Below are positions 10,597-50,724 of a stretch of 64,000 nt of DNA, in pieces. The position numbers and the translations under genes are program-made. This stretch comes from Leucosporidium creatinivorum (Eukaryota > Basidiomycota > Microbotryomycetes > Leucosporidiales > Leucosporidiaceae), in the NCBI GenBank assembly GCA_001600635.1, contig BCKL01000013.1, positions 679,396-743,395 of the forward strand, read 5' to 3'. The notes beneath the pieces are model-generated. The model ran no database searches, was not told where the DNA came from, and saw nothing but the letters and a program-made list of their open reading frames with translations. Position 1 is the first letter of the stretch; each line of letters begins with the position of its first letter.

Positions 10597-11515
10597 ATGC
10601 CACCACGCAAGACCATCTCAGGCGAGCTCATCGGCGAGCTACACAAGCTCAAAGCGAAGTACCAATGGGACTGGAAGAAGATTGCTAGCAAGATGGGGCA
10701 TACCGAAGAGGCGTGCAAGCGGAGCTGTCGGTCTTTCAACGCTGAGGTATGTTCGCTGGGAAGCTAGCTGACATTCTCTACGATGCAGGGAGCAACTGGT
10801 ACCTCTCGGCGAATGGACCCATCGACCTCACGAACGATTCGGACGAGGGGGATTCGGACGACGAGGTCGAGCGGCAGTTGGCTGGCGCTGGCAGGAACGT
10901 TAAGGTCGAGCATCGTGCACTTGAGATGCAGATAGAAGGTATATTTGTACTCTGAGCGACCTCCCAAGCTTGCAGCGCTGACGAATCTCTCGTTCGGCGG
11001 CTCGGCGATAGAGATCAAGGCCGCCGCTCCTGCTCAGCGAGCGAAGGGGAAGGACAAGGTCAGCTCTTCGAGTCTCGAAGCTTTATCTGATTTTACTGAC
11101 GCCCTCGGCCCGTACCCAGATCATCTCCGACCTCGAAGCCCGAGTCCTCGCCCTTGAGGAAGAGCTCCGAGTAAGAGCTCTCGTTCAGCTCTTACCGCTT
11201 CCACGCCCCCCGCCGCTCCACTTTAATCGCGAACTCGAAGCTGACTCTTCAATTGTCCTCTCCGTCTCGCAGACTGAACGAACCTGGGCTCTTGGCGACC
11301 GTGACCGAGCAGCCACGACACTCGAAGCGGCGCACAACGCACATCATGCCCGAGAGAAGGAGTGGACGGATAACATGGCAGGACTTTTGGGCGAGGCAGT
11401 GGGGAAGGTCGTGGTGGGCGAGCAGGGAGGGCGGGCGAGGGAGAAGAGGAGGAGAGACGGGAGCGCCGAACTTGGGGGAGGGGCGGCGAGAGGGGCAGCA
11501 AGGGCTCGAGGCTGA
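10597..11515 (+). CDS. SANT-A: small SANT/Myb-like coiled-coil protein
   Basis: Function unknown. Exon 1 encodes MPPRKTISGELIGELHKL followed by YQWDWKKIASKMG and EEACKRSW, a single SANT/Myb-like helix-turn-helix with the usual C-x3-W in helix 3. The Trp codon is split T|GG by an intron at 10727-10788. Its donor reads GTCGGT, which is weak, but it keeps the frame and the motif; the stronger GTATGT at 10747 breaks the frame. The middle is acidic (DLTNDSDEGDSDDEVE). Exon 4 is a short coiled coil (IISDLEARVLALEEELR). The last exon carries TLEAAHNAHHAREKE and a basic tail, stopping at 11513-11515. The C-terminal exon matches SANT-B, so A and B are tandem duplicates. I estimate roughly 200 residues. 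Confidence 0.7.
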
Positions 11516-11543
11516 GCGAAGCAAGGGCTCGAGGCTGAGCGAG
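11498..11543 (+). repeat. 23-bp tandem direct duplication
   Basis: GCAAGGGCTCGAGGCTGAGC plus GAA occupies 11498-11520. It is repeated at 11521-11543 with one change at the last base. The SANT-A stop codon (11513-11515) lies in the first copy. Confidence 0.9.
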
Positions 11544-11975
11544 GGTCTTCTGCGAGAGATACGAGTGTGCTCGAGCGTTGTCTTGAAGCTGTATCCGACG
11601 AGTTGATCGCCTACAGCGCTCGAAGAGAGTCGAGAGCCGAAAAGCTCGGCGAATGGGCGCGGTGAAGCAGTAGAGGGCTGCTCTGAGCAGCAAGCTCTGC
11701 TGAGCTATGCTATAGGTTGGAAGTTCTGCTCGAGAGCTGTAGCTACTCACGATCCGTGTCGACCCCTGACTAGCTTCGACCTCCCGCTTCGACCCTCGTC
11801 CGCCTCTCTTCCTCCTACCACTCACCTCGTCTCGACTCACATCGCTCGGAGGCCCGCTCTCTCGTACACTCCACCTGTGCGGTCGACCACCACCTGCTCC
11901 CACCATCTTCGTACTCTCCTGCACCTCCTCTCGCTCCCTCGCACGACCCAACTCGACCTCATCTCTCCCGCCCCA
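11516..11975. other. Intergenic region SANT-A / SANT-B
   Basis: 460 nt without a supported gene apart from the 23-bp duplication at its start. The promoter of SANT-B is presumed here, near CTGTAGCTACTC (about 11739) and a C/T-rich stretch just before the start codon. Confidence 0.5.
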
Positions 11976-12833
11976 ATGCCTCGCAAGAGAGATACAACTC
12001 GCAAGACGGTTTCGGGCCATCTTGGTCTCTTCAAGCTTCACGACGTGTACGAGAGCGACTGGGGCAAAATCTCGCAGGAGTTGCAGATGCCCCAAGAGAC
12101 GCCTAAAGCGGCTTGTGAGCAGTCTTGCCTACCCTCGAAGGTAGCAGATGCTGAATCGTTGGGAGACATCGCTGACTCCAGGGGACCGCTACAACCCTTT
12201 TTCGGACGAGGGCTTCATCGACGTCGTCAAGGCGAACGATGCCGAGAAGGCTAAGGAGAAGGAGGTGGAGGGCGAAGTTGCCGAGAAGGACGAGAGTCAA
12301 GGTCAGTCACCTCGCTGACCAGTCCACCTCGATTACCAGCTGAAAAGATCGACTTCTCGGCGATCTGTAGCTGGAAAGGAGGAGCCCGCCCGCAAGAAGA
12401 TCAAGCTGGAGGATGTGGTGAGGGCTTCGCTCGCGTCGTTCAAGTTGTAGCACATCGCTGACCCTCTTTTCATTATGAAACAGACCATCGCTACCCTCGA
12501 GACTCGCCTCAAGGAGGTGCAAGGCGAGCTCGAAGTGAGTGTCAACTTCCGCCGAGCTTTGGCGTGCTACTTCCTCTCGCTTCTCCTTCCCAATTTTCGC
12601 CTCGCTTGTTCGCCGCTGACACTCCTCTTCGCTCCTGGCCTCTTCCCCACCAGAACGAGCGCGCTTCCTCCAAGGCCGACCGCGAGCGCTTCGCGAAAAC
12701 GCTCGAGGCGACTCACGCCGCCCACCATCAGCGTGAGAAAGAGATTAGTGACAACGTCATCGCTCAGCTGGGACAAGCTGCTTCGAGGGGAGTGATGGGA
12801 CGTGCGCAGGGAGAGAAGGAGATGATGGGCTGA
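11976..12833 (+). CDS. SANT-B: small SANT/Myb-like coiled-coil protein
   Basis: Function unknown; paralogue of the upstream SANT-A. The start gives MPRKRDTTRKTVSGHL and YESDWGKISQEL, parallel to RKTISGEL and QWDWKKIASKM in SANT-A. An intron at 12115-12181 splits the Trp codon T|GG, giving PKAAWDRYNPFSDEG; the helix-3 Cys of SANT-A is not conserved here. An acidic/basic middle follows (EKEVEGEVAEKDESQ, then EEPARKKIKLEDV). The coiled-coil exon TIATLETRLKEVQGELE aligns with the equivalent exon of SANT-A. The last exon has TLEATHAAHHQREKE, matching TLEAAHNAHHAREKE, and ends at TGA 12831-12833. I estimate about 180 residues. Confidence 0.72.
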
Positions 12834-13187
12834 GGCGAGCGCCGAGTCGTGGGTTGAGGGTGCGCTTAGTGGATAGGAAAGAAAGATCGAAAAAGCTTGG
12901 AGATTCGTTCTGCACATAGGATTTGCAGTCTTACATCTCGATTCTGTGCCAGAACCGGCGGCCGAAGCTAGGAGGCTGAGCTCGGACCCTGCTCTTGACG
13001 GACAGCGCAGCGAGCGATGCAGGGAGTCAGATTTTCTCGAGCTTCAGAGGCTTTTCTCTCCTTCTTCTCATTCGTACTCTCTCCTTCTTTTCATTCGTAC
13101 GAATCTCGAGTCGCTCGTTCGCTACCTGAGGGACAGATGACGAATCGTTCGAACTCTCGACATCGCCGAGCTCCCCCTTTTCCAACG
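12834..13187. other. Intergenic region SANT-B / SANT-C
   Basis: 354 nt, presumed SANT-B 3' flank and SANT-C promoter. The SANT-C frame is open upstream to about 13017, so an earlier start cannot be excluded. Nothing else is seen. Confidence 0.5.
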
Positions 13188-14106
13188 ATGCTCCTCCTCC
13201 TTCGCTCGCCTCTCTCCCTTCAAAAGCCACTTTTCCGTCCCCCTCTCGGACTCCGTGCTTTCTTCTCCACCGATGTCGCCCGCCTCTCGCCGAACCGCCG
13301 CACCGCTTGCGGTCGGCCCTATCGCCGAGAACCTTGGAACTCTTTCGAAGAGGGCAAGCTCATGGAGCTGGCAGAGAAGCACGGAGGGCACTTTGAGCGA
13401 GCAGCTGCGGAGATGAAAACGAGATCCGTGAGGTCTTGTATGCAGAGGTGTACGTTCTCGTCGTCGACTGAAAGAAAGCTCGGGGCCGAGCAGGGCTGAC
13501 GCTTTGGCCGCCGACGCAGGGGAGCTGCTAGACAAGGCGGCGAGAAAGAAGAACTCGAATTAGTGAGCTCCCCTTCTTTCGGCGAACGATACAGCCACAC
13601 GCTGACCCTGTCGCTTCCTTTTTTAGTTTTTTAGTCCGGTGCCGAGTTGGATTGTTCGCGAGAGGCCGCTCCCGGTCCTCCCTCCTCAGATTACTGGCAC
13701 GGCGTGGAAGCCCGGTTCGTACAGCTGCATCTGTCCGTTACTTACCTCACTGACCTTGAACGAGCGTGCAGAGCGCTCTGTTCCAAAAAAACTGCCCGCT
13801 TAGTTTTCGGCGCTGCTCAAATTCGAGCAACGTGAGATGGCGGAGGAGGGGTGAGTGCTGCTTTGCTGGCCGAGTCTCCAATCTGACAAGCTCTATTACT
13901 CTCCGTTCACCAGCTCCAAGTTGCCACGATGAGCAGGCATGAGCTGGTCGACGATTTGGCGAGGGCCGAGGTGAGTTATTCGCTTCAGACGTTCTCTCGC
14001 CACAGCTTCTGAATGGGAGGAGTCGTGCACGCAGGGGGAGGCAAGGGTATGGAAGAAACTGTACTTCAAGGAGAAGCACTTCAACGAGAAGGATGGCAAG
14101 TCGTAG
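13188..14106 (+). CDS. SANT-C: SANT/Myb-like protein with presequence-like N-terminus, possibly interrupted
   Basis: Function unknown; paralogue of the adjacent SANT-D. From ATG 13188 the first ~28 residues (MLLLLRSPLSLQKPLFRPPL, then GLRAFFST) are Arg-rich with no acidic residue, like a mitochondrial presequence. The SANT segment follows: EPWNSFEEGKLMELAEKHGG and RSCMQRW. An intron at 13450-13519 splits the Trp codon T|GG. The most natural reading continues ELLDKAARKKNSN, YPVPSWIVRERPLPVLPPQI, then ERSVPKKLPA. An in-frame TAG follows at 13801-13803. The same frame goes on as FSALLKFEQREMAEEG, and later exons read ELVDDLARAE and WKKLYFKEKHFNEKDGKS, stopping at 14104-14106 and matching the SANT-D tail. 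It is either truncated at 13803, a decaying copy, or carries a base error. Confidence 0.55.
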
Positions 14107-14469
14107 ATTCGGCGATGATTCGCCGAAGGAGGGAAGGGGCAGGCAGCTGTAGATAGAACATCCCCACTCAGTAGTACTTGTGCAGTAGCAACACCACTCA
14201 ACACTCTCATTCGTTCAAGAGAAGGACATGTACGAGAGCAGGAGAGCGAGTGGCTTGGCCTCGGTCGAGCAGGCCGAATGGAAACGGACGGCGCAGCTGC
14301 ATCGCTCGAAAGTCAGAAGCGTTTTCCCTCCTCAGGGTCGCTCCTTCCTCCGCTCTGCAAAGCTCATCTGTACCGGAGCACAGGGACCAGGCGGATTCAA
14401 ATCCCCGTCTACGTCGACGCTTCACCGAACCGCTCTCTCGTCGTCGACACGACTTAAGAGGACGCCAGC
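14107..14469. other. Intergenic region SANT-C / SANT-D
   Basis: 363 nt. The stretch 14143-14203 resembles 15536-15599 downstream of SANT-D, so the duplication that made C and D included 3' flanking DNA. No other gene is supported. Confidence 0.6.
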
Positions 14470-15448
14470 ATGCTCGTCACGCGTCTTAGCCCCAGGCTCG
14501 CCGCTTGGGCTCCCTACCTTCCTCGCTCACCTTTCCAAGCTCCCTCTGCATCCATCTCCTCCCTCCGCCGCCGTCGGCGCCGAACGATCATTGGAGCAGC
14601 TGGTTGCCCTTGGCACAGCTGGGAGGATTCGCGTCTCTGGCATTTCCAAGGAATCTACCGCAACAACTGGGAGGCGATCGCCAAGCATGTAGAGACTGGT
14701 CGAAGTCCGGGAGGCTGTCTTCAACGATGCGAGTTCATCGCCGAGCTCGCGAGCGCCGGGGCGTCGTGCTGAATAGCCAGGGCTTCTCGCAGGGATCAAG
14801 CTCAAGAAGCATCTCAAGGATCCCAGGTAGGTGCTCCAAGCATCGACATCAGCTAGACCCCACTGATACCGTCGACCGAACCACAGCTCCGAACTCACCG
14901 TGTACGAGCCTTCTGCTCCACCACCGCCGGCAGCTTTGGCGAAGCGCATCTCTCCTCGAGTTGCAGGTAAGCGCGGTCTTGCTTCCGGAACCTGTAGTGA
15001 AAACGACGCTGACCTCACTGCCATTCAGAGCAAATGGCGGCGTACCTCGGGCGAGTTGAGCCTCTGGCAGTGGCGGGAGAGGGAGAGAACGAAGGCGAGC
15101 GAGCCACCTCTCGTACTGTGGGTCGTATCTCCCTGCTCTTACATCACTTTATCGTTCACAGCTAACTTGTCTCGCCCCTCCCAGCATGAGCTCGCCGCGA
15201 TGAGCAAGCTCCAACTCATCGACGAGGCCATTCGACTCGAGGTCAGCAGAGCTTTCAGAATTGCGCTCCCTCAGCTAATGTTCTGTGTTAGACAGCTCCT
15301 CGCCAACCAGTACCGCCAGCTCTGGATCGCACCCGTACAAGCGAAACTCAATGCTGCTCGGCGCCGAGAGGAGGAGTTTGAGGAACACTTGAGGGCTGGC
15401 TATAAGGCGAGCGTTGCGCGTGCGCGTAGTGCGAGGTCCAAGACGTAG
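14470..15448 (+). CDS. SANT-D: SANT/Myb-like protein with presequence-like N-terminus
   Basis: Function unknown. From ATG 14470 the first ~45 residues contain many Arg and hydrophobic residues and no acidic ones (MLVTRLSPRLAAWAPYLPRS, later RRRRRRTIIGA), suggestive of a mitochondrial presequence. The SANT segment reads CPWHSWEDSRLWHFQGIYRN, NWEAIAKHV and GGCLQRW. The Trp codon is split T|GG by an intron at 14729-14792 whose donor is GC (GCGAGT). This is the only good solution: a GC-AG intron at the position shared with A, B, C and E. The next exons read IKLKKHLKDP, a Pro-rich piece (YEPSAPPPPAALAKRISPRV), MAAYLGRVEPL, and HELAAMSKLQLIDEAIRLE. The last is LLANQYRQLWIAPVQAKLNA with a basic tail, TAG at 15446-15448. 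Confidence 0.7.
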
Positions 15449-15804
15449 AGATAGGTGGGGGAGCTCGTCGGCGATCAGGGCGGCGAGGAGGAAGAAAGTT
15501 CGGCGCAAGTTTCGGCGGCGGAGAGAAGCCGGAGGGCAGCTGAAGATAGCCCATCACCACTCAGCAGTACTTGTAGAAGCAAATCAACACCATTCAGCAA
15601 CATCTCTAGCCGAGAGCGAGATTGCAGGAGACGAGAGCAGCGAGCGAGTTGGCTTCAAGGCGTTTCTCGGGCTCGGCCGAGCGTCCCCTTTTAAGCCTGG
15701 CTCTTGTAAACTGCTTGCATATCGAAAACTGCCCGTTGTACATCGAGTCTTGAACACTGCCCACAAAACACCCGCTAAGCCCCTGCACCTCAAGCCCCGC
15801 CGTC
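15449..15804. other. Convergent intergenic region SANT-D / sugar transporter
   Basis: 356 nt without a supported gene. It contains the second copy (15536-15599) of the C/D 3'-flank duplication. Confidence 0.5.
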
Positions 15805-18112
15805 CTAGACATGACTCGTCTCGCCCTTGGTCTCCGAGTCGGAGCGGCTGCCAGCGAATTCCAGGTGCTGCACACGCTCCCTCTTGGCCTCGCCGACAGT
15901 GGTAGCATGCGAGTGACTGAAGAGGAGGTCGATCTCCTCGAGTGACTTGCCCTGTAGAGTGAGGAAAAGGATCAGCTCGGCGCTCCCTGCTCGGCGAAGG
16001 TGACAGGCAGTCATTGTCGTGCTGGAACGTACCTTTGTTTCGACCAGCAAAAAGTAAAACATCGGGACAAAGCAAAGATTGAACAGTCCGAAGACGATGT
16101 AGGTCTTCCATCCGATGCGCTCAATCTACAACAGGAAACGAAAGGTCAGCGGGGGACTCGAGCGAGAGGTGCAGACCGTGGCGGACCATGACGGGGAAAA
16201 CCTCGACTACGGCGAAGTTGATGATCTTTTGAAGAGCGAAGTAGAAAGTCAGCATCAAAGCGAAGGCCGAGAGCGACGTCGCGCCAAGAACGTCGACCCC
16301 ATCGCCGAGAAGGGCGACTCACCCAGTTGCAGCATGTGGCGAGCGCTGTGCCCTTGCCACGGATCTTGAGAGGAAGTAGCTCGGGGACAGTGCACCAAAC
16401 TGTCGCTTGGAAGCCTGGAAGACGAACATGAAGCATCAGCGGGGATTGTTCGGCGATCAAACTGCGCGACGACTTACCGATGGTAAAGGCGCTGAGGTAG
16501 AGGAAAGCGATCGCAACAGCAAGACGTCCCATGACGGGTGCGAGCTCCGTCTTGTACTGGATCTCGTGCGTAGCACCCGCGAGGACGGCAAAGCATGCTG
16601 CCATGAAGGCGACTGCACCGACCAGGAGAGGCTTGCGGCCGAGCGAGTCGATGAGAAGCCAGGGGACGAAAGACATGACGAAGAAGCAGGTGAAGAGACC
16701 GCCTGTGAGAGATGGGAAGGGTCAGCACAGAGCAGAAGAGAGCTCGGCGCGAGTGGCGGCTCACCGGAAAGGACTGAAGCGTCTGTGGGGGAGAATCCGA
16801 GACTGCCGGAGATGACCAGAGTTCCGTAGTAGATCACTGCATTGATTCCTCCCAGCCTGGGTGATGCTGGGTGGTCAGCGCAGCTCTCGCGTTCGTTTGG
16901 GCGCCGCCCTAAGCCCTTCAGCTCGGCGCCGACAAGCTTCATCAAGAACTCACTGCTGACAGAATTGGATCATGCAGGCGAGACCGAGACGACGACGCGA
17001 CTGAAGTTCATCTTTCGCGAACAGCTGTTTCCATCCCTTGACCATCACGGCCTGCTCGTAGGCGACAGCGTCGGCGATCTCCTGGTATGCTGCGCGAGCT
17101 TCCGGGTCGGTTACCTCCAGGTTTTTGTACGCGGCGATGGAAAGGAGGGCCTCCTCGTGACGACCGTGGTTCTCGAGCCAGCTGTGAGGGTGGGAGGGGA
17201 AAAGCGAGAGCGAGAATTAGCTTGAGGCTGAGCTCGGCGATCGGTGTGAGCCTAGCAAGCGACAGAAGTGGAGGGGTGGGCGTTAAGGAGGAGACGAAAA
17301 GCTCACCGAGGCGACTCTTTCACAAAAAAGGAGAGGATGAGGATGGGGATGATGATGACGATCTGGAAGGCGATGGGGAAGCGCCAGGCGAAGGACGAGG
17401 ATTCCGAGCGAGTGGTGCCGAAGTCTAGCCAGTAGGCGAGCATGATGCCAAAGTTGAGGAGGGAGAGCTGGGCGCAGACGTCTGAGAGGTAGGCGAAGGG
17501 TCAACATGGTGGTAGAAGCCCCGGCAAGAGGAGCACGCTGATCAACGCCGAGCTTACAGCGGCCGCGGCTGGCTTTGGGAGAGACCTCAGCTTGGAGGAC
17601 CGGCGCCTGGAGGATGTAGAGACAGATCAGCCTGACTCTAGAGCACGAATGAGAAGCCTGAAACTCACCGTCGAGTTCAACAAGCCCATTCCCAAGCCCG
17701 AGACGATCCGACCCGCAATCAAATGTCCCCTAGTATACGCACTGGCCTGGAGAGCAGCCCCGATGGCCATAAGAATAGAGCCAATACTGATCGTCTTCTT
17801 CCTTCCCAATCGTTCGCCGAAAGCGAAAGCTCCGACCGCGCCGAAGAAGCAGCCGACTTCGTAGATTGCTACGATGGTGGAGAGAGCGGAGCCGGTGGGG
17901 TTGTGGAAGGTCGTGTTGAAGGTTTTGGCTTCTGTGAGGCCGCCGATTACGCCGTTGTCGTCTGTTTGAGTGCGAGTGCGAAGGGGAGGATCAGCTCGGC
18001 CTTCGGAGGGGAAGAGGCCGGCATGTGACTGGACTTGGGACTTACAGCCGATCAACATGAAGGTGAGGGCTGTTAGGATGGCAGTGAGCAGGAGAGGCGA
18101 GATGAACGCCAT
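15805..18112 (-). CDS. MFS sugar transporter (sugar porter family)
   Basis: Twelve-helix plasma-membrane sugar transporter. From ATG 18112: MAFISPLLLTAILTALTFML, then YDNGVIGGL with the Tyr codon split by the first intron. Family motifs appear in order: GERLGRKKTISIG in loop 2-3, AGRIVSGLGMGLLNSTV, the Pro-Glu loop (APVLQAEVSPKASRGR), FVKESPR and CQQLGGINAVIYYG (the QQxxGxNxxxYY motif of helix 7). Then come DSLGRKPLL, WCTVPELLPLKIRGKG and VETKGKSLEEIDLLFS, the variant of the PETKG signature. The protein ends GETSHV at a stop at 15805-15807. About ten exons are present. Substrate (hexose, pentose, disaccharide or other) cannot be decided from sequence alone. An in-frame extension upstream of 18112 is open but looks like 5' UTR. 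Confidence 0.9.
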
Positions 18113-18835
18113 GGTGAGGCGCGAGTGCTGAGGGGCGAGAAGTTTGGGAGAGGGCGACGGTGGGTCAAGAGCTCGAGTGTGGTGTACAGAACCAAGAGAG
18201 CAAGAGAGATGAGCAGGGAGATTCGTAGGGGCTCCGCCCGTTCCCCCCCCCCACGACTTTTCTATCTGCGACATAACTTCTCCACTATTTGTGTCTCGAC
18301 GTCGAGATCAAGCGAGCTTGAGGATCGCCCGAGCTTTTTCGCCGACGAAGCTCAGAAGTGCCAGCGTGCCCCGCGGTCGGTCGACAGAAAGAAAGGAGCA
18401 CTTGAGAGAGGAAGGCGAGCCGCCACCGCTAAGCGCCGACACCCCGCGGGCTCGGCGCACGAGAGCAAGCCTGCAGTGATCTGGTCGCTCTCGCCGAAGG
18501 TCAGCTGTAGCTCGAGGTGGGTGGGGGCGCTCTGCATGGGAAGCGAGCTGGCGATGAGCAGCAGTCCTTTTAAGCATCTACGGCCCGCTTTGATGAGCTG
18601 GTTGTGGAGGGTTCGTGGGTGTAGAGAGAGGGAGCGGCTTCAGCGAAGGCTTGGGATTGGAAGGGGCTATCGAACGACGTCTGGAGGATCACATAGGTAT
18701 GTTACTTAGGTAGCAAGTTCCTTTCCCGCTGGACTATATCCGCTACGCCATCCTCGCCCTTCAGCTCCCTCCCTCGCCGATCATCCGGCCTGAGCCCTTG
18801 CGTGCGCCGACTCGCTCCCCCTGCTCTGCAGAAGT
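18113..18835. other. Intergenic region sugar transporter / SDR
   Basis: 723 nt, presumed promoter of the sugar transporter (minus). Open frames exist here (for example 18125-18709 plus) but they are Arg/Ser-rich, GC-driven and resemble nothing. No RNA gene is recognised. Confidence 0.5.
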
Positions 18836-19728: not shown

Positions 19729-19759
<31 letters not shown>

Positions 19760-26473: not shown

Positions 26474-27504
26474 ATGGCGCCTCGCGACGACCTCTGGCCG
26501 CCGAGCGAGGACCACCAGCTGCTCGCCCTTGTTGAAAAGTACGGCGACAACTGGCAAGCCGTGTCCGACAACCTCGTCACGGAGAAGGTCGACAAGAGAA
26601 CTTCTAACGCTTGCAAGCTGAGGTGTAGGTGTCACTATGGGGCTGGTCGCGGGGACGAGGGACTAACTCTATGCGCTACAGGGAAGAGGCTCGGTGGCAG
26701 TCAGACGGCGCAAGCTTCGGCTCGCTGCCAGTCGAAGAAGTCGGAGAAAGCTTCGCCGGTCTCGACTAAAGTTGGCGCGGGTGGCAGCCAAGGTCAGCTT
26801 TCTTGGCACATGCTATACCCTCTCAATCCTCCCAGCTGACGCCGACCGACCCTGCAGCCTCCAAGAAGCGCAAGGCGCTTGTTCTCGAGGACTCGGACGA
26901 CGAGGCCGAGACCGAATTCTCGGCTAGCAAGAGCAAGCGCAAGAGCAAGGCGGCGGATTCGCAGGTTCACTTCGATCATCTTGCCACTGGAAGCTGTACA
27001 CCTGGCAACTGGAAGCGCCAGCTGACCTCGCTCCTCACAGGTGCTGCTGAAGAAGGAGGTCGAGGACCTCAAAGAGGAAAAGCTCGTTCGTCGTCCCAGC
27101 AGACTCGCCCTGTGGCTCAAGCTCATGCATACTTCCTCTTTCACAGAAAATCGCCGAGCAAGCTCGTATCCGCTCCGAGATGAGGGAGGACAACCTGCAG
27201 AAAACACTCAGCGACGTCGTTGGCATCTTCGGCCGCTTCACTGAGAATACCGGCGTTTGTCCAGGTACGGGAGCGGGCGGTGGAGGCGATGGAAAGAAGA
27301 AGGTGGCATTTTCTGCTGAGAAGGATGGCAAGGATGGTGCGAACGGCGACGATGTGGATGGTCGTGAGTCTCTCGGCGTTGACAGCTCGGCGAGAGCTCC
27401 GCTGACCGCTCCCATCGCTCGCAGGACAATCAGGCAGTAGCTTAGCGACGATAGTGCTTGTAGGATATCCTTGCCTTCTTTTTGTAGCTTTGTCGGGGAG
27501 GTAA
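26474..27504 (+). CDS. SANT-E: SANT/Myb-like coiled-coil protein
   Basis: Function unknown. The start gives MAPRDDLWPPSEDHQLLALV, EKYGDNWQAVSDNLV and SNACKLRW, a good SANT/Myb helix-turn-helix with both framing Trp residues and the C-x3-W of helix 3. The intron beginning at 26625 splits that Trp codon T|GG, as in SANT-A to D. The next exons are basic (SQTAQASARCQSKKSEKASP) and then acidic followed by basic (LEDSDDEAETEFSASKSKRK), suitable for a nuclear localisation signal. A leucine-zipper-like coiled coil (VLLKKEVEDLKEEKL) precedes KIAEQARIRSEMREDNLQKT and IFGRFTENTG. The tail is Gly/Lys-rich; the last junction is uncertain and my reading stops at 27502-27504. It stands alone rather than in a tandem pair. 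Confidence 0.7.
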
Positions 27505-35308: not shown

Positions 35309-35558
35309 GGGAGCGAGGAGCAGCTGCGTAGAGCACGGAGGAGTTGAGGTGACCCGAACGATAGATGCTATCCTTTTGCAGATCGGGGAGATGGAAACCG
35401 CTCAGAGAAGTTGAGAAGTCAAGCTGTCGAACAGTCGCAAGCTCCGAGCGCTGAGAAAGTGCTCAGACGACGAGCTCGACTAGATCAAAATCGAGCCGCT
35501 CATCTTTTGCTCTCCTCCCACTCGCTCGCTTCGTCGGTTGCTCGCTCGCCTCGCTACG
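35309..35558. other. Intergenic region phosphate transporter / SANT-F
   Basis: 250 nt, presumed SANT-F promoter. Nothing else recognised. Confidence 0.4.
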
Positions 35559-36563
35559 ATGTCTCCTTTCACTTGGACTCCCTGGCTACTGAACCAGCTC
35601 TCGATGCTCGCCAAGGACCCTCGAACTCAGAACGACTGGACTGCCATCAAGCAGCGGCTCGCGGAGCTGGCGCCTGAGGCTGGGGCGTTCTCGGACTCGC
35701 AAGTCTCGCAGAAAGTTCAGGAGCTCGAGGGTGAGACTCTTCGTCAAAACGAAGCTTCCGCAAGCTGACCTGTACTCGACTACAGCCGCCGACGCTGACC
35801 GCCAGGGTGAGCGCTTCATCTTCGCGGGTTGGACGAGCTTACAGCTGACCCCCCTTCACTACTCGAAATCAGACGCCCCTCAAGTCAAACATCCTCGCCC
35901 CCCGAAGCGCAACTACAGTACGCGGTCGGGTGAAGGCGACTCGGATTCGCAGGAGAGGCCGGCTCGCGGCGGGCCTTCCTCTCTCTCGGTCGTGGACGAG
36001 GAGGACGAGGAGGATCAGGTCGATACCCTGCAAGGTGAGTCCCAAAAGCATCCCCAAAAGCATTTACACAGAGCTCACGAGACTCTCAGCCCTCGCAAAT
36101 ACGCCTCGAACCCCGGCTCAACCTTCGGCCCACGACGGCGAGGCGCACTCTAGCGACGAGGAGCTCTCCAAGGTCTCCATCAAGACGGTAAGCTACTCTG
36201 CAGATAGTATGTAGTTCCTCGCTGACCTCTCGACTGCTCACCCTCCCCAGCTAAAGGAGCAAATTGACCGCCGAGAAAAAAAGAAGAGGAGGAAGGAGGT
36301 TCGCTCGCCTCTCCCGTCACGTATCGTACAGCGCTAATCATCCAAACTCTCCCGTCACATCCGAACAGGGCAAGCAGAAGACCCAGCTCCTTCAGCTCGA
36401 GTTGCACAACGTCGAGAAGGAGAAAACGGCGGCGGAGATGCACCACCGAGATGTGAGGTACGCTGTGCGCGAGGGTGTGCGAAGTGAGTTGTCATACCTC
36501 CCTCTATCCTCGAGTACTGGCGGGCTTACCCCTTCATCACCTCGAGCAGACATCCCCGAGTGA
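35559..36563 (+). CDS. SANT-F: SANT-like coiled-coil protein, paralogue of SANT-J
   Basis: Function unknown. The start reads MSPFTWTPWLLNQLSMLAKD, then NDWTAIKQRLAELAPEAGAF and SDSQVSQKVQELE, a divergent SANT-like helix-turn-helix without the helix-3 Trp. Short exons follow: one Pro/basic (VKHPRPPKRNYSTRSGEGDS), one very acidic (SVVDEEDEEDQVDTL), then SSDEELSKVSIKT. The C-terminus is a coiled coil split over two exons: LKEQIDRREKKKRRKE and KTQLLQLELHNVEKEKTAAE, then RYAVREGVR. The last exon adds only NIPE before TGA 36561-36563. SANT-J on the other strand has the same start (W..AST/LNQL, SESQLAARMQELEG), the same KKKRR-E coiled coil and the same REGV ending. Confidence 0.72.
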
Positions 36564-36940
36564 GCGCCGAGGTGAGCTTGGAGGAGAGGGCTACGAAGCG
36601 GATAGGCGTAGTGGAGCTTGAAAAGTGCTTAGGAGTAGTGAACAGCTTCTTGACCTCCTTTAAATGTCTCAATATGATGTAGCAAAGCGAGCGGATCCGT
36701 CCTCGACTTCTCGGCGCCATTCAGAAGCTCGGCGATGCGCTAGACAGCTCACGATTGGCGCGAGAGGTGCCAGCGAGAGCAAGAAGCAAGAAGTTCAATT
36801 CTATATGCTCCAAGAACTCCTCGACGACGCTCAAGCAACGTGCTCCAGCGACTCTCTAGGTCGGAAAGTCGAGCCTCTCGCGGCTTGACTTCCGACCACT
36901 CGCCTCGTCTCAAGACCGTCTCGCCCGCCGCTTCATCAGG
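36564..36940. other. Intergenic region SANT-F / SANT-G
   Basis: 377 nt without a supported gene. Presumed SANT-G promoter. Confidence 0.5.
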
Positions 36941-37802
36941 ATGGGCAAGCGCTGGACCTCATCTGAAGATCAAGAGATCCGAAACTTCGTTGCTAGCGCT
37001 CCAACCAACGACGTCGGGATCATTTGGGCGGGGATCACCAAACGGCTGCCTCGTCGCAAGCAAAAAGCTTGCCGCCAGCGCTGGGCTACTCTCAAGAAGG
37101 CTACCCTAGGAGCGCGTAAGTTTTTGCGCTCTAAGGAGGTACAGCAGCTACTTACTCGTCCAATCAGCGGTCAAGACAGCTTCCGCCGCCGCTCAGCCTC
37201 GCGCGAGCTCCTCGTCGTCTCCTCGCAAGTCGCAGGGTGGGGCGCTCTGGTTTCGGACAGCTACAGACGCAATCACTAACCTCCGTCTTCGCCTAAAGCC
37301 CGTCACCCGTCTGTTTCTCGCCCTACTTCCGCTCGCGCCGCCAACACCGATGAGGAGGAGAGGGAAAGCGAGGTGCAGGAGGAGAGAATGGTGAAGAGGC
37401 AGGTGCGTTGCTACTCTCGATTCAAATCTGAGCTCTTTGCTGACGCTTCGCTCATCGAACAGCTCATCAGCAGGAAGCACGACCTCGACGAGGCCATCGC
37501 CGAGCTCGATGTGGGTGGTCCTCCTCCGAGCTTTCTTCCCTTCTCTCACCTCTTCCTCCCCTTCTAGGTCTTTCACGGTCATCGCATGCTGGAGGAGGAC
37601 ATTCGTCATGTCAAGGCCGTCACTGCCATCAAGCAGGACCACACCAAGGATCTCGTCAAGCTCACCGACCGCGAGGTCGAGCGCCTTAGGCTCGCCGCGA
37701 TCTTTAACGATCCCGATCTCGTGAGTCGGTGCGATATATTACTGGTGAGTACTCGTCCGAGTAGCTCTGACCTTCCTTCCTTCGCAGATGACTCAGGACT
37801 GA
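36941..37802 (+). CDS. SANT-G: Myb/SANT-like coiled-coil protein, paralogue of SANT-I
   Basis: Function unknown, but this is the clearest Myb repeat of the cluster: MGKRWTSSEDQEIRNFVASA, IIWAGITKRLPRRKQKACRQ and RWATLKK, with three helices, framing Trp residues and C-x3-W. No intron splits that Trp, unlike SANT-A to E. Introns lie after the repeat. A Ser/Ala-rich basic linker follows (AQPRASSSSSPRKSQ). An acidic stretch (TDEEERESEVQEER) leads into the coiled coil LISRKHDLDEAIAEL, then HRMLEEDIRHVKAVTAIKQD and KLTDREVERLRLAAI. A tiny last exon MTQD ends at TGA 37800-37802. SANT-I has the same coiled coil (DHDLLKEDIRHQIALPQARK, LEVERLKLK) and also a tiny last exon. Confidence 0.75.
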
Positions 37803-43089: not shown

Positions 43090-43164
43090 TGTTCTGTAGG
43101 AGAGTAGCAGAGTCAGCGGTTGAGAGAGAGACGGACGGGCGAGAATGGGCGTTTGAGCGTGAGT

Positions 43165-43225
<61 letters not shown>
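43165..43225 (+). repeat. 61-nt poly-G homopolymer
   Basis: Uninterrupted G from 43165 to 43225. The length is probably approximate, because such runs are poorly sequenced and assembled. If real it could form G-quadruplexes between two divergent promoters. Confidence 0.6.
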
Positions 43226-43226
<1 letters not shown>

Positions 43227-43588
43227 AGTGAGAGAGCTACAGCTGCGAGTAGCCCGTGCGCCCGATGAAGAATAGGACGATATACTCACCTCTAGTCCGC
43301 TGATGAGCTACAAGGCGGTTCAAAGCTGCCTCCTCCTTTGAGCTCCCCAGTGACGCGAGCTTGACCGGATGCTCAGTCCCGAGTATGCTGGTGTGGTACA
43401 GGCGATGTAGCAGGAAACCGTCGGTGTAGGCTGTGGAACGATAGAAGCGCTGGAGAGAAGCGAAAGCGGCTCAAAGGCGCTCGAGGTGGAACGAAACGAG
43501 ACGAGACGAGACGCGGGTCGAGTTGAGTTGCTGCTGAAGTGGTGAGAGAGAGGAGCGTGCGCTAAGTAGCAGAGCAGCCTGGGTCGGA

Positions 43589-43604
43589 AGCTGTAGGTCG
43601 ATAG
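43589..43604 (+). promoter_or_regulatory. Shared 16-nt upstream element AGCTGTAGGTCGATAG
   Basis: Identical to 10169-10184. It lies 116 nt upstream of the NUP85 start. Function inferred only. Confidence 0.4.
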
Positions 43605-43719
43605 GTCGAGTCGAGTCCAAGCAGCGAGTGGTTCGGTTTCAAGAGTCGAATCCAACCTCGCGTCTCTCTCTCTCTCGCTCTCTCGCTCTCTAGCTCTCCC
43701 TCCGCCCAAATCGTTCGTT

Positions 43720-46700
43720 ATGGATTCTGCACCTCGACAGGTCACGCTACAGCCACCATTGGCTCGTACTACTAAGGATCAACAACAGGTCACATTGGCT
43801 ACAGCTTTTGCTCCCAACTCCAACTTGATCGCTTTGGCTTTGGCTCCTTCCCCTCTCGACTCTGAGTCTCAGCAGCTCGTTCAATCTACTACTCCTCAAC
43901 GTCAATTGGTCTACTCGGCTCAATACAACTTGGATACATCTCATACGAGCGAATTCATCATCCATTCCTACACCTTGTTCGCTTCCTTACAGGTCAGTCT
44001 AACCTTAACACCTCAGCCTAACCCTCTTCTTTCTGGCTCAGCCCGAGCAGCCCAAGCTCAAGCTCACTCGCTTCTTACACATTAAACACAACAGAAAATC
44101 GCACAGGATACCACTACCACTACAGACATCTATGGTCAACCTTCGCAACCTACGCAGGATCAGCTGTCCTACTACAACCGCATCATCCGCCTCTACCAAC
44201 ACGCCCTCGTTCAACAGTTGCCCATCATCCAGGTAAGGTCTCGCGCTCTGTCCCAGCTCTGCTCTACTCTACTACAGCTCACTGTACTGCTACAGGCCGA
44301 TGCCACCCTCACTGCCTCCTCCCGCTCCCACCAACTCACCCACCACGCCGACCTGCATGCCATTCTCTCCCTCACCCAACTCCTCTACCTCCCCAACGAT
44401 AACCGCGGAGATGGGCTCGTTGGTGAAGAGCTCTTGGATTGGGTGAATACGGTGGATAGAGCCCCGCGTACCGAAGAAGGAGAGGAATTGGCCGACTTGA
44501 GTTGCCCGTGGGAACATTCCAACTTTTGGCCTTACCTCTATCGGTGTGTCTTTTTGGATTCTCTCTTCCCATCTCCTCAAAGCTGTAGCTAACCCCTCTG
44601 CCCTAGGTGCATCCTCCGCGCCCACCTCCTCTCCTGCTCCACCCTCCTCTCCCTCCTCGCCTCCTCCCATCCCTCCGAGACCCTGCGCTCTCTCGCCGCC
44701 CTCGCCGTCAACCTCCTCACCACCTTCCCTCGATCCACCGCGTTCCGCACCGAGCACGAATTCTTGGGCAAATTGAGGAGTTGGAAGGCCGAGGCAAAGA
44801 TGGCGGCGAGGGCGGCCGAGGAGCTCTTTGCTGAGGGGGAGGAGGATGAGGTGTTGGGTTAGGCTTTCTTACTACTCTCGTTTTAACCTCTCGCTTGAGC
44901 TACAGCTGACCCCGAGCTCTTGACAGCACAAGACGAAGACCTCCGCCTCGACTTTGAAACCTCCTTCCGCACCCTCTTTGACCTGCTCCAAGGCTCGGAA
45001 CCGCGTGTACTCGAGGTATCAGAGGATTGGAGGGAAGCTTTGGGTGCGTGGGGAGTGTGGGTCAATCCAGGGGGAAGGAGGGAGGGTATCCCGTGAGTCT
45101 CGGCTTTGGTTCTCTGGCCTCGCCGAGTCCTCCTTTGTGCGCTGTTCGCTCGAGCGAAGGGCCTACAGGAGTAAGATGGGAGATGAAAGACTAGAAATCA
45201 GATGCTGACTCTGATGTCGCTGGTCTCACACAAACAGAGCCACCCTCCAGCTCATCACCAAATCGCACCCCATCGATTCGACCCTCCCGAGCGAGGCTGT
45301 CCAATCGAGCTTAATCTTGGGTGATGTACCGAGGGTGCGTGAAGAGTCATGCCCTACCTAGCGACCTCGCGCTGACCTCGGCTCTGCTTGCATCTTTCCC
45401 TCTCTCCCGCCCCGCCTTGCACGCTTCGTTCTCGCCATCGCTCCTCCGCTCTGCTCATCCTTAAACCCTCCATCACTACCCCGACAATTGCCCCCCACCA
45501 CAGGCCCTGCAACAAACCAACCTCCTCTCTCTCTGGCTCGTAGCACACCTCTCGGACCTCCTACACCACCTCGGCGTGCTGGAAACCCCCTCCCCCTCCT
45601 CCTCCGCTTCCTACCACACCGACCTCCGCACGCACTTCCTCCTCTCCTACGCTGATACCCTGCAAGCTGATCCCAGCTTGTGGAGGGTCACTGTGGAGTA
45701 TCTGGCGGCGTGTGGAGAGGAGGGGAGGGCAAGGATCAGGGGGGTGCTCAAGGGAGTGGAGTTGAGCTCGGAGGAGGCGGAGAGGGTTGGTGGTGGTGGG
45801 GAGGGTGAGAGGGAGGGTATGGAGGTTGAGGGTGCCGAGGAGAAGGAGAATGATGATCCTGAGCGAAGGGGGGAGAAGAGGCAGCCGAGTGTCGTGGAGG
45901 AGGTGTTGAGGGTGTGCAGTGAGCAAGGATTGGAGGAGGAAATGATGAGCGTTTGCAAGGTGTGCCTTCGTGCTCTCTACTACATCGTCGACGACGAGCC
46001 TGACCCCAATGACTCTAAAAAACAGGTCTGGTCCGAGCAACTCATCGCCGAGAAGCGCTATGGCGAGGCCGTGTCGTTCTGCGTTCGCGCGGGCGACTCG
46101 AAGCGGATAGCTAGGATTGCGGATCGCGTGTTGGAGGAGTACGTGGTGCATGGTGAGTCGCCTTCGCTCGTTCTCGAAGCTCGGCTCTGCAAACTAAAGC
46201 TCCTCGCCCCCCGTCAACAGGCCAAGAATCCTTCATCCACCACGTCGATTCCATCCCCACCTCTCTCCTGCGCCCTCCCTCTTCCTCCCTCCATCGCGAG
46301 CTCTTCGGCGCCTCCTCCACCGACGACGGCCTCACCTCGGCCTCGCGCGCTTCCTCGCCCATGGGCTCCGACGAGGGCAACGCAGGGCTCCAAGCTCCTT
46401 TCTCCAGCAAGCTCAGCTTCCTCGCGAGGTATAGGGACTTTTTTGCGTTTTATGCGAGGGGAGATCGGAGGCAGGCGGCAGAATTGTTGGTGCTCCTGTT
46501 GACGAGTGGAGTAGCGCCCAAGGGGTTTTATGCTGCGAGTTATCTCGTTGCTCTTGTTCGTTTCGATCGATATGCTGACCACGCTCGATACCACACAGGT
46601 CATGCTCCTCGACGTCCTGCCCCTCCTCGAATCCTCCACCTCCCTCTCCAACCTCCTCATCACCCCTTCCGAGACGTACGAACTCCTCCGCATCCTCGAG

Positions 46701-46991
46701 GAATTGACTTCGCCCATCTCGGCCACTGGTGTCGACATCTACGGCCATCTCGACTCGCTGGCGCGGTTGCTCGGTGGAGGAGAGGAGGAGAGCAGGGAGA
46801 GGAAGACTGAGAGGAGTTTGAAGCAGTTGGAGGTGGTTAGGGGCGAGTTGGCGAGGTGGGCTTTTGATCTTGAGCTACTCGATGGATGAACGCTGACCTC
46901 CTCTGTCCTCCTACAGGCATCTCGGGCGTTGCTGCTGCCTCTGAGCGCGGGCTTGGAATTGAGCCCCGAGGAAGGGGTAGCTTGGGCTTAA
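43720..46991 (+). CDS. NUP85: Nuclear pore subunit Nup85
   Basis: Helical scaffold nucleoporin of the Y (Nup84/Nup107-160) complex. From ATG 43720 the first exon (about 90 residues) is beta-rich and polar (VTLATAFAPNSNLIALALAP). Later exons carry the Nup85 helical stack: YYNRIIRLYQHALVQQLPII, SNFWPYLYR, CILRAHLLSCSTLLSLL, LFDLLQGSEPRVLEVSEDW, HLSDLLHHLGVLE. These are followed by DPSLWRVTVEYLAACG, EQLIAEKRYGEAVSFCVRAG, FLARYRDFFAFYARGD, MLLDVLPLLESS and ETYELLRILEEL. An acidic loop (EVEGAEEKENDDPERRGEK) is inserted near 45830. The end is LSPEEGVAWA with TAA 46989-46991. About eleven exons, roughly 800 residues. One intron uses a GTTAGG donor. The first two exons use more A/T-ending codons than the rest. 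Confidence 0.85.
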
Positions 46992-47154
46992 TAGCACGCA
47001 GAAATGATCGCATATTCGCAGTAGAGCGACCCGAGCGACCCAGCGGTCCCTTGTACCTCGTCAGCTTCGAACCGATCCAAATGCAAGCGCCTCAGTCCGC
47101 TCGGAACCCGGCTTGCGCTCTTACCACTCACTCGTCCTCTCTCGCCGGCAAGAA
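46992..47154. other. Short intergenic region NUP85 / SANT-H
   Basis: 163 nt, presumed SANT-H promoter. Nothing else recognised. Confidence 0.4.
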
Positions 47155-48130
47155 ATGGGCAAGCGGAAGGAGCCCCGCGAGTTCGACCCTCCGTTTACGC
47201 GTCAAGAGTTTCAGCAGCTCGTCAGTATGAGAAGCGGTTACCCTCGAGGCGAGGAGGACTGCAACGAGATGGCGAGAGCCCTCCCCGGCCGCTCTGCCGA
47301 CAGTGTCAAGCAGAAGCTGGTGGCGATGGCTTTGGTGGTGGGCAAGTCGAGGGAGATGAAGAGCTACAATGAGGACCGGGTGTATGATCTTAAGGAGTGG
47401 AGGGAAGCGGGCTCGAAGGAGGAGAAGCGAAAGAAGGAGCGTCGCAAGAATCGAAAGAAGGTCAAAGGAAGAGTTAGAGCTACAGGTGAGGTTCTCGGCA
47501 CTGCTTGAACTCAATGCTTATCTAACTCATACCCGTAGCGCCCTCACCGACACCGGACTTGAAGCCCGTCGCTGATGTAGACGCTTCGCTCAAGTTGGAG
47601 CCCGAGCCCAAGCGCTCCAAGAAGGCAAAAGAAGTGCCGCCTCCGGGCTCCTCTATTGCAGAGCAGAAGGGTAGGTTGAGATCAGTATGGCTCTGCCCCA
47701 GACGACACCCACTGACGCTCCTCGCAGCCGCTCCGCCGCCATCTCCCGAGTCCGGCTCAAGCTCGGCGAACAGAAATAAGGGAAAGAGCAAGGCCGAGCC
47801 TGTCGAGATGCTCGACTTGACGTTGGGAGAGGATGATCTCGATTCAAAGCCCGCTGTTCCGGTGAGACGAGCGTCTCGATATCGAGTGTGGCTTCGAGAC
47901 TCACCTCCGTCTCTTTTCGCCGAGCAGAACGTCGGTCTGACTCTGAGCCCAGCCGTCGAGGTCGGTTCTGATTTCGCTCATCCGCGACCTCTCGCTGACT
48001 TTTAATCGTCGTACAGCTCCAACTCCTCAAGATCCGTAGTGAGGCGGCCCAGCAGAAGCTCAAGATCGAGAATGAGGCGCTGGCGAGGGAGAATGTGCTG
48101 CTTCGAGGGCTCGTGTCGGGCGAGGTCTGA
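47155..48130 (+). CDS. SANT-H: SANT-like leucine-zipper protein
   Basis: Function unknown. From ATG 47155: MGKRKEPREFDPPFTRQEFQ, QLVSMRSGYPRGEEDCNEMA and RALPGRSADSVKQKLVAM, a SANT-like three-helix pattern in which the helix-3 Trp is replaced by Leu. A strongly basic stretch follows (KEEKRKKERRKNRKKVKGR), suitable as a nuclear localisation signal. Acidic and Pro-rich linkers come next (LKLEPEPKRSKKAKEVPPPG, PVEMLDLTLGEDDLDSKPA). The last exon is a leucine zipper-like coiled coil: LQLLKIRSEAAQQKLKIENE then LARENVLLRGLV, ending GEV, TGA at 48128-48130. The architecture is the same as in the other family members; no close pair partner is seen in the window. Confidence 0.7.
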
Positions 48131-48422
48131 GGAGGTTGACAGGGACTCGAATGTACCCGACACGATCCATGAAGCCCTCTGACCTGTTGCTGTCGGGCTC
48201 GGCGAAGAGCTGGGGTCTGTTAGATCTCGGGCTTGTCGGAATTTGCAGCGGACTGGGTGGAGTCCGAGAGAGAGCTCTGCGTCTTTTGGCTCTCAGACGA
48301 CAGGATTGAGTCACAACAGTTTTTTGCAATCCGCTAAGCTATACGACTATCGCTCGCTACGCTCCCCTTCCTCCAACGACCTCGGCCTTACCCCGCCGAG
48401 CATGAGTAGACCTCCGAGATCT
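48131..48422. other. Convergent intergenic region SANT-H / SANT-I
   Basis: 292 nt. An alternative reading of the last SANT-I exon would extend to 48347. Nothing else recognised. Confidence 0.4.
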
Positions 48423-49286
48423 TCAGTCGCCTGCGAGCGAAGAAGGTCAGCTTCGCTTCTCAGCTCCTCGCATAGAGCTGTGAAACTCACCGTCACTGCT
48501 CTCGGCGACATCGCTCTCTTCCTCCTTGGTCTTCTTCTTGAGCTTGAGGCGCTCGACCTCGAGGCCGGCAAGAAGAGTGAGGTTTCCGACTTGCTCCTTG
48601 CGCGCTTGGGGGAGTGCGATTTGGTGACGAATATCCTCTTTCAGCAAGTCGTGGTCGTGGAGGGTCTAGAATGGAAACCGGTCAGCGGCTGTTGCGGGCG
48701 CCGAGGCAGAAGAGCGACCAACGCCGAGCTCCTCGAAGGTATCTTGCAGCTCGCGCTTTTTGGCAAGGAGCTGTGGAGTAAGAGTCAGCTCAGTATTATG
48801 CCGCTAGCGTGAAGCACAGTCGACTCACCCTCCTCCTCTGCTCCTGCTCATCATCCTCGCTCTCCTCCGAGTCGTCGACGGGGAGAGGAACGGCGCGGGG
48901 TGAGGAAGGCGGCGAAGCAGGGGGACGAAGAGCTGTAGTTGAGGTGCGTGTCAGTCATTTCCCCTTCTATAGGGGTCCTCGGAGAGCTCACCCTTGGCCT
49001 TGCGAGGCGTCGATTTCGTCGAGCGCTTCTTTTCAGCCTTGACGGCAACGGCATCCTTCCCTGCAGACGGTACAGAGTCAGAATGTGTAAAGGAAGCGTA
49101 AGGAAGCGTCTCACTGTTCTTGATCGCATGCCAGCGCGCCATACTCGCCATCTTGGTGCGGCCCTTGACGTCCTTCTCCACTCCCCTCCAGTCGACTTGT
49201 CCCCGAGCACTCGAGTTGGCTTCCGCACACTTGCGCAACTTGTCGTCTTCAGAAGAGTCCCAGGGTTGATTCCTCCAGCCCGGCAT
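48423..49286 (-). CDS. SANT-I: Myb/SANT-like coiled-coil protein, paralogue of SANT-G
   Basis: Function unknown. From ATG 49286: MPGWRNQPWDSSEDDKLRKC, VDWRGVEKDVKGRTKMASMA and RWHAIKN, a Myb-like repeat with framing Trp residues; no intron splits the helix-3 Trp. A basic exon follows (GKDAVAVKAEKKRSTKSTPR), then a Pro/Ser-acidic exon (VPLPVDDSEESEDDEQEQRR). The coiled coil reads ELLAKKRELQDTFEELG, then HDHDLLKEDIRHQIALPQAR and LLAGLEVERLKLKKKTKEEE. This matches SANT-G (EEDIRHVKAVTAIKQD, REVERLRL). Using the GTGAGT donor, a very short last exon gives the ending DGD and a stop at 48423-48425. A tiny last exon is also seen in SANT-G. Confidence 0.73.
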
Positions 49287-49633
49287 GCTTGTTGAGAGAC
49301 GCTGAGAGAGCGAAGCGAGTGGTGGGAGGTCAAGCCGTGAGAGGCTCGATTTCGAGGATTGGGCAGTCAGTCGCTCGGGCTCTTCGCTGGAGTGTCGGAG
49401 AAACTGATTGATCGATGTGAGATCTACTCGAGGCTTCTCTTCCTCGCTAGCAAGCTATCTCGCGCGAAACGAGCTCGCTAGCTCAACGCCGAGATTTGAA
49501 ACAGCGCCGAGCAGGCCTAAAAACGCCTCGAAACGCTTTGTATTGAGCAAGAGCGATCGCTAGAAGAAGTGAATGGGCCCCTTATTCCTACCAGCTCCTT
49601 CTGCAACAGACACCACTCATCAGGTCGCCCCCC
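49287..49633. other. Intergenic region SANT-I / SANT-J
   Basis: 347 nt, presumed SANT-I promoter and SANT-J 3' flank. Nothing recognised. Confidence 0.5.
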
Positions 49634-50724
49634 TCACTTCGGCGAGGTCGTCTCGGCGCTCTTTGGATCAGGATCCGGCTCAATGGCTGCAGGAGTCGTT
49701 TCGACATGTCAGCGAGCGAGTAAGGGAGCGCGAAATAGATGACTCGCACGCACCTGCCACTCCCTCGCGCAGAGCCAGCTTGACTTCTCGCAAGCGAGCT
49801 TCGGCAGCATCCGTCTCGGCGCGACGGTGAGCATGCTCAAGCTTGAGGAGGTCGGTCCTGTTGTCGAGCTAGGTGAGGCAATATACGGGTCAGCTGTCGG
49901 CTCGACGAGTGCAAGCAGACGGAAGCAGGGGCTGCACCGAAGACGTACCTCGATACGACGCTTCTTTTTCTGCGCCTCGTGAATCTGCTGCTCGAGCTGC
50001 ATCGGCGAAAATGTCAGCTCAGATCTCCCAAGCTACAGTACACAACTCACGATCCCAACAGAGACGAGCTTGAGTGTGTCTCCGCCGCTGCTTGAAGCCG
50101 CCGCCTCGCTGGCAGTGCCGACCGCCGAGCCAGACCTTGCGCGCGCGAGTGGTCCCGAGGCGTCTCTGTGCAGGGAGTAGCGATGAGTGAGTGAGCTAGA
50201 TTAACGATAGACGATCTGCCAGCTGACTCACCGGGGTAGCTTTCCTCGAGATGGCGCTGCTCCACCTCGACCTCGAGGGCCACGCCGAAGTCGGGCGAAA
50301 CCTGACGGGCGTGCTTCTTCTTCTGAGGCGCTGCTGCTGCTTGCGGAGCGCGCTTAGTCGTTGGATGCTTCTGATTAGCTTCGGCATTGATCGACCGAGG
50401 GGGTGAGCCTGCAGAGAGAGAGGGGAAGCGGTCAGCTTCTCGCTGCTCGCTCGACGTCACACGCCCACGACTCACCGTCGTTCTGGCGGATCTCGTCGGC
50501 TTGGCCAGATTCTCAACGGGGGTAGGGGTCAGCCTCTGAGCTGCTCGACTGCATCCGCTGAGCTCACCTTCGAGTTCCTGCATCCTCGCTGCGAGCTGGC
50601 TCTCTGAGAAGCGCTTCTTGGTGAGATCCCTCAGCTGCTGTCGGATACGTGACCACTGGCCAGGCGCATTGTCGTACAGCATTACGAGCTGTTCAGTTGA
50701 CGCTGGATCCCATGAAGCGGGCAT
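49634..50724 (-). CDS. SANT-J: SANT-like coiled-coil protein, paralogue of SANT-F
   Basis: Function unknown. From ATG 50724: MPASWDPASTEQLVMLYDNA, PGQWSRIRQQLRDLTKKRFS and ESQLAARMQELEG, parallel to SANT-F (W..W..IKQRLAEL, FSDSQVSQKVQELE). A basic Ala/Lys exon (TTKRAPQAAAAPQKKKHARQ) leads to VALEVEVEQRHLEESYP. A Ser/Ala linker follows. The coiled coil is split over two exons, LEQQIHEAQKKKRRIE and LDNRTDLLKLEHAHRRAETD, then LREVKLALREGVA, as in SANT-F. The last exon is IEPDPDPKSAETTSPK with stop at 49634-49636. An in-frame Met exists upstream (50841), but the SANT segment begins at the chosen start, as in the other members. Confidence 0.73.

Follow-up and report, generated by a model that had tools for sequence, protein, structure and literature searches.

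How did ten small genes, each opening with a Myb/SANT-like domain, come to lie within 40 kb of the genome of the basidiomycete Leucosporidium creatinivorum, and what might their proteins do? We analysed them in a window of 64,000 nucleotides, positions 679396 to 743395 of contig BCKL01000013.1 (C13:679396-743395, our G000), in a genome assembly of 27.7 Mb in 63 contigs. A preliminary description, made from the letters alone, had placed ten such genes here and given each a single N-terminal Myb/SANT-type domain. Both points are borne out: every start is an ATG that opens a Myb/SANT-like first exon, and for all ten the domain is recovered by a hidden Markov model (HMM) trained on the genome, which beats shuffled sequences. 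On balance we lean towards the view that the ten are old local duplicates encoding small proteins, with an N-terminal c-Myb-type helix-turn-helix, a charged linker and a probably helical tail, that act as dimeric Myb-type regulators.

Gene models were built by an intron-aware script, with no guidance beyond the ten ATGs imposed as starts, and were then adjusted by hand (Table 1); the models before adjustment are referred to below as unguided. The genes, labelled g1 to g10, form four pairs, which we call subtypes A (g6/g10), B (g7/g9), C (g1/g2) and D (g3/g4), and two singletons, g5 and g8. In Pfam searches with the N-termini, a Myb model lay above the curated cut-off for three of the ten (g5, g7 and g3) and below it for g4, g1 and g9; no Myb model matched the N-termini of g2, g6, g8 and g10. 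With whole spliced models (an earlier splice choice for g3 and g4), only g5 and g7 exceeded it. We also trained a separate Myb HMM on 24 Myb exons that all lie outside the window, elsewhere in the genome. With it, nine of the ten genes outscored every one of 1000 shuffles of their own sequence; g6 is marginal, yet its pair partner g10 is clear. A six-frame scan with an HMM that includes the ten was run over the window, the 20 kb upstream and 50 kb of another contig, C21. Among the 45 best matches listed (at least 22.6 bits), those in the window are exactly these ten, with no eleventh there and none in the 20 kb upstream, and the reversed-peptide control reached at best 7.2. The profile of all ten, in which the better members dominate, finds c-Myb at an E-value (E) of 3.2e-20 and has c-Myb and B-Myb as its best matches. 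A profile of the five weak members alone gave four matches, all of them Mybs, at E 0.28-0.88 only, and one made from g6 and g10 matched no Myb.

The best evidence for a shared origin of most of the ten is their exon layout. Intron phases agree across the subtypes, with a phase-1 first intron, mostly phase-1 linker introns and two phase-0 introns flanking a short tail exon. In nine genes the first intron falls where the Myb domain ends or just past that point, and in g8 it follows the domain by about 50 residues; in g1, g3, g4 and g5 it splits the helix 3 tryptophan codon (T/GG), and in g2 it falls four residues earlier. A tail exon of 15-19 codons (45-57 bases) between two phase-0 introns is present in eight of the ten hand-checked models (g1, g2, g4, g5, g6, g7, g9 and g10), and five of the unguided models, representing subtypes A, B, C and D, contain it as well (g2, g4, g6, g9 and g10). 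In g8 the first of these phase-0 introns is present and the second is not. Among 35 control genes, 30 of them with at least three exons, not one of the 145 internal exons is of this kind (Fisher 3.8e-4 by gene and 2.5e-4 by subtype, for the unguided models). The controls were predicted with free starts, so that the comparison is not perfectly matched; they were taken from the other genes of the window, from L002 and L003, and from five pieces of C21 that carry other Myb genes. The intron phases and short tail exon shared across subtypes argue for common descent of most of the ten. The exon also offers a practical marker for finding the family where sequence similarity fails.

Within the pairs, phmmer E-values run from 1.6e-6 to 1.8e-25 in the set of ten, and identities are 33% (A), 35% (B), 38% (C) and, over 91 N-terminal codons, 34% (D). 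Second codon positions are the most conserved in all four pairs (0.54-0.60, compared to 0.35-0.42 at third positions; D over its N-terminal 91 codons only), the pattern expected of proteins under selection. Subtype A adjoins subtype B twice, A before B each time (35559-37802 on the plus strand, 50724-48423 on the minus strand), and the same order at two inverted places points to a probable inverted copying of the two genes as one A-B unit. In protein searches of the own genome at E 1, the window holds 7 of the 8 places found with g10, 6 of 8 with g9, 6 of 6 with g2 and 5 of 12 with g5; all places outside it are at E 0.002 or worse (D and g8 were not among the queries). Single-sequence searches of this kind are weak, g9 finding its pair partner only at E 0.04.

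In the mechanism that we propose, the c-Myb-type helix-turn-helix at the N-terminus, preceded by a leader in the D pair, would be followed by a charged linker and by a C-terminal, probably helical segment spanning the short exon; charged residues make up 26-40% of the proteins. From this architecture, and by analogy with the plant protein PHR1, the tail may dimerise the proteins. In B, D, g5 and perhaps g8, whose third helix is basic, the paired Myb domains would then bind DNA; A and C, in which this helix is acidic or neutral, would act as partners or modulators. The B genes may be controlled via a dyad in a block upstream of them, perhaps with a family dimer as the regulator. No other stretch of DNA matches better between the two A-B units than this block, which is non-coding in the preferred models and lies 30-75 bases before g7 and 20-66 before g9. 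The best 40-base identity between g7 and g9 is 0.88 upstream versus 0.72 in coding sequence, with a shuffled maximum of 0.60. The TCGAGCC-N6-GGCTTGA of the block is an imperfect dyad whose arms differ once. Without mismatch the dyad occurs at two places in the 27.7 Mb, both before B genes, and a 21-base core is matched exactly twice genome-wide, with no other match under three mismatches; at three there are 2 more, compared to 16 for the reversed control.

Several results weigh against this reading, and we set them out with the alternatives that have to be considered. The paralogue was consulted when several splice sites were set manually, the middle of the g3 model is provisional, and the preferred g4 model is one of 20 open boundary choices; the short exon of g4 is present in the unguided model too, whose score is negative (-1.3). 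Among about 5.8 billion proteins, at E 0.01, no match was found for the B alignment, the A alignment or g5 (2670, 7952 and 1626 candidates), in a search that had no control that the lineage is represented and in which C, D and g8 were not queried; we do not claim that the genes are orphans. The Myb-domain tree (59 columns, 56 rows; 7 of 53 inner branches well supported) does not group the ten, giving 8 label changes versus 9.4 when shuffled, with 58 of 500 shuffles as low. The expectation that the ten would cluster above other Mybs thus failed on the domain sequence, although a single clade is not rejected (approximately unbiased test, p 0.32). Such a tree, the weak similarity between subtypes (best E 9.7e-7, g5 to g7, in the set of ten) and a second Myb hot spot elsewhere (the 500 kb contig C21 has 27 of the genome's 66 Pfam Myb matches at E ≤1, the window 4) would suit a history in which several Myb genes of different sources gathered at the contig end and four of them were then duplicated once, the ten not being one family by descent. 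We regard this as possible but rather unlikely, given that the intron phases and the short tail exon are common across subtypes and absent from the controls, the C21 Myb pieces included.

The tails and the third helices bear on function. The preliminary description had ended every protein in a coiled coil, for which two crude tests give weak support: the heptad scores of g2 (18) and g6 (15) are matched by few of 300 shuffles, those of the other eight by 52-215, and the helical periodicity of the tails has a combined p of 0.60. Helix 3 has a net charge of +2 to +7 in g3, g4, g5, g7, g8 and g9 (+2 in g8, which is without the tryptophan), of 0 in g1 and g2, and of -2 in g6 and g10; the net charge of the whole Myb domain is zero or below in g2, g5, g6 and g10. 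In this light the ten could be adaptors of SANT type, acting in chromatin or protein interactions without binding DNA themselves, an option to which we give about the same limited credence as to the gathering of unrelated Mybs. DNAJC1, the best PDB match of g8 (E 0.009), is a SANT-domain protein, which would agree with such a role. Speaking against it, the basic helix 3 ends in CxxRW in g3, g4, g5 and g7 and in xxxRW in g9, and the best profile matches are c-Myb and B-Myb; together, these matches and the basic helix 3 argue for DNA binding by g3, g4, g5, g7 and g9. Of the earlier claim that every member has a DNA-binding-like domain, the Myb-type domain stands; that all ten bind DNA is doubtful from the sequences, since two members have an acidic helix 3 and two a neutral one. 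Neither coiled-coil dimers nor DNA binding by the whole set nor a wholly new family is proven.

Our proposal for the B genes meets its own difficulties. Each of the three remaining pairs shows lower identity over the 100 bases before the gene than within coding sequence (0.65 versus 0.70, 0.65 versus 0.70 and 0.53 versus 0.65), and with up to one mismatch the dyad is rarer than its control (51 versus 74 per strand), the one-mismatch places being at background. The upstream block of the B genes might also be partly the last coding exon of longer A genes rather than a promoter: a longer g6 model, ending within the block at 36888, scores slightly better than the shorter one (33.5 versus 32.7). 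We find this improbable, as the conservation extends 23 bases beyond the stop at 36888 and a related block also precedes the A genes. Extended to its fullest, the dimer proposal would make the ten a self-contained combinatorial set of Myb-plus-coil paralogues, some of them non-DNA-binding, with mixed dimers on a dyad operator before the B genes, the cluster regulating itself and one pair perhaps mitochondrial; we hold so complete a scheme to be quite improbable. That the ten have no role in the cell, as accessory genes in decay or of mobile-element origin, which their low unguided coding scores (-1.3 to 33.5, versus at least 60 for many neighbour genes) and the provisional middle of g3 might suggest, is very improbable given open multi-exon models for the nine other genes (g5 as far as modelled), the purifying pattern in four of four pairs, and no transposase named among the neighbours (ten exon pieces scanned, two with a Pfam match, namely a sugar transporter and lumazine synthase, and no search aimed at transposases). 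A Myb-like accessory protein of a PIF/Harbinger element would be expected beside a DDE transposase and terminal repeats.

Table 1. The ten genes (labelled by start, which is the higher coordinate on the minus strand; subtype in brackets), a candidate exon and the upstream blocks, in window coordinates
Feature	Coordinates	Strand	Properties
g1 (C)	10597-11515	+	5 exons, 206 residues; hand-placed short tail exon 11120-11170; Myb HMM 21.5 bits, 0/1000 shuffles; paralogue of g2, E 5e-23
g2 (C)	11976-12833	+	5 exons, 178 residues; short tail exon 12484-12534, in unguided model too; Myb HMM 11.7 bits, 0/1000 shuffles
g3 (D)	13188-14106	+	Arg-bearing N-terminal extension and Myb domain; donor T/GTACGT; Pfam Myb 1.2e-5 (N-terminus); Myb HMM 38.4 bits; middle of model provisional
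g3 candidate short tail exon	13914-13970	+	Open 57-base stretch; phase-0 join to last exon, upstream side provisional
g4 (D)	14470-15448	+	6 exons; first intron GC-AG in preferred model; short tail exon 15185-15241; Myb HMM 35.9 bits
g5 (singleton)	26474-27445	+	Best Myb of the ten; hand-placed short tail exon 27041-27085; 3' end approximate; Pfam Myb 2.8e-10 (N-terminus), 6.3e-11 (spliced model)
g6 (A)	35559-36563	+	7 exons, 209 residues; short tail exon 36251-36298; Myb HMM 5.3 bits, 7/1000 shuffles; paralogue of g10, E 8.7e-17
g7 (B)	36941-37802	+	6 exons, 187 residues; short tail exon 37463-37510 (hand-placed after g9); Pfam Myb 2.2e-9; paralogue of g9, E 1.4e-24
g8 (singleton)	47155-48130	+	4 exons, 236 residues; intron phases 1,1,0; without short tail exon; Myb HMM 12.6 bits, 0/1000 shuffles; best PDB match DNAJC1, E 0.009
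g9 (B)	48423-49286	-	6 exons, 191 residues; short tail exon 48723-48770; Myb HMM 31.5 bits
g10 (A)	49634-50724	-	7 exons, 230 residues; short tail exon 49949-49996; Myb HMM 15.9 bits, 0/1000 shuffles
Upstream block of g6	35475-35530	+	77% like g10 block and, from 35485, g9 block; one half-site only
Upstream block of g7	36866-36911	+	87% identical to g9 block over 47 aligned bases; holds dyad TCGAGCC-N6-GGCTTGA
Upstream block of g9	49306-49352	-	Partner of 36866-36911
Upstream block of g10	50752-50803	-	Weaker version of B-gene block

The surroundings of the ten genes were inspected as well. Contig C13 terminates exactly where the window does, and its final 50 or so bases are TTAGGG-like and degenerate; four consecutive perfect TTAGGG repeats occur nowhere in the whole assembly. 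The preliminary description put the genes near a probable telomere; that the contig end is a chromosome end is plausible. Introns are short, most of them with CTGAC or CTAAC, and the window has no transfer RNA and no Rfam match at the gathering score. The word CCACTCRCTCG, allowing one mismatch, occurs 26 times in the window versus 5.9 expected; being common there, the word was rejected as family-specific, and it may be used in promoters of this fungus in general. The N-terminal extensions of the D pair (13188-13320 and 14470-14600) contain Arg, are poor in acidic residues and resemble a mitochondrial presequence; their amphipathic moment is not above that of shuffles (414 of 2000 as good for g3, 271 of 2000 for g4), leaving a presequence reading unsupported.

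A second, larger Myb hot spot lies on contig C21 (183-495 kb; L034-L038). Its members include a Myb-like domain, QPFSxxDDxxLLxL..YKxISRxMxPxRHKxEV, that differs from the window type and is specific to this contig (17 of 17 matches), and Pfam recognises two Myb stretches in one predicted member. Beside these Mybs are two closely similar predicted genes (L034:775-2166 and L035:3531-5123), the longer of which has no Pfam match at E 0.01. A link of the ten to the mating-type loci was rejected, as all STE3 matches lie on contig C25, and contig C24 has the best homeodomain match, from which a second, weak one (E 0.07) lies 1.3 kb away in opposite orientation. Like the short introns, these matches would suit a basidiomycete. 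Elsewhere on C13, two weak Homeobox_KN matches at 384792 and 406751 have opposite orientations and open frames of equal length (461 residues), possibly an inverted duplication.

If the reading as dimeric Myb-type regulators is true, the ten are a compact natural set of diverged, possibly dimeric regulators in 40 kb of one fungus, and would lend themselves to studying how partners and DNA targets are divided among paralogous regulators. A search of openly licensed papers gave no account of this gene family, and the words Myb and SANT are absent from the main text of a Microbotryum genome paper (PMC4469406). Even so, the earlier statement that no family with this layout has been described was too strong, as appears from papers on plant MYB-CC proteins (PMC2936532), trihelix factors (PMC6686422) and ascomycete Mybs with coiled coils (PMC5470089). 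The MYB-CC proteins PHR1 and PHL1 combine one Myb domain with a predicted coiled coil and form homo- and heterodimers, and PHR1 binds an imperfect palindrome (PMC2936532). The helix 3 of our ten differs from theirs in being c-Myb-like (CxxRW) or degenerate, and neither sequence kinship to MYB-CC nor a coil is among the demonstrated features of the ten. The GARP-type helix 3 motif of MYB-CC proteins of the PHR1 type is SHLQKYR. By eye, neither this motif nor the telobox of the TRF/Taz1 type is present in any of the ten helix 3 sequences. In trihelix (GT) factors a trihelix domain is joined to a long C-terminal helix able to form a dimerising coiled coil (PMC6686422); no trihelix Pfam model is among the matches listed for the N-termini or spliced models of the ten. 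In an ascomycete, Ascochyta rabiei, a survey of transcription factors reports several Myb factors that also have coiled-coil regions, and the part of it available does not mention a local ten-gene array (PMC5470089). The single-repeat Myb-related proteins of c-Myb type (PF00249/PF13921) have the same domain, above the Pfam cut-off for 3 of our 10 N-termini; the ten differ from them in forming a local array with a common short tail exon. The layout is already known in plants and some fungi, and the ten genes are a real, local and old variant of this known protein layout.

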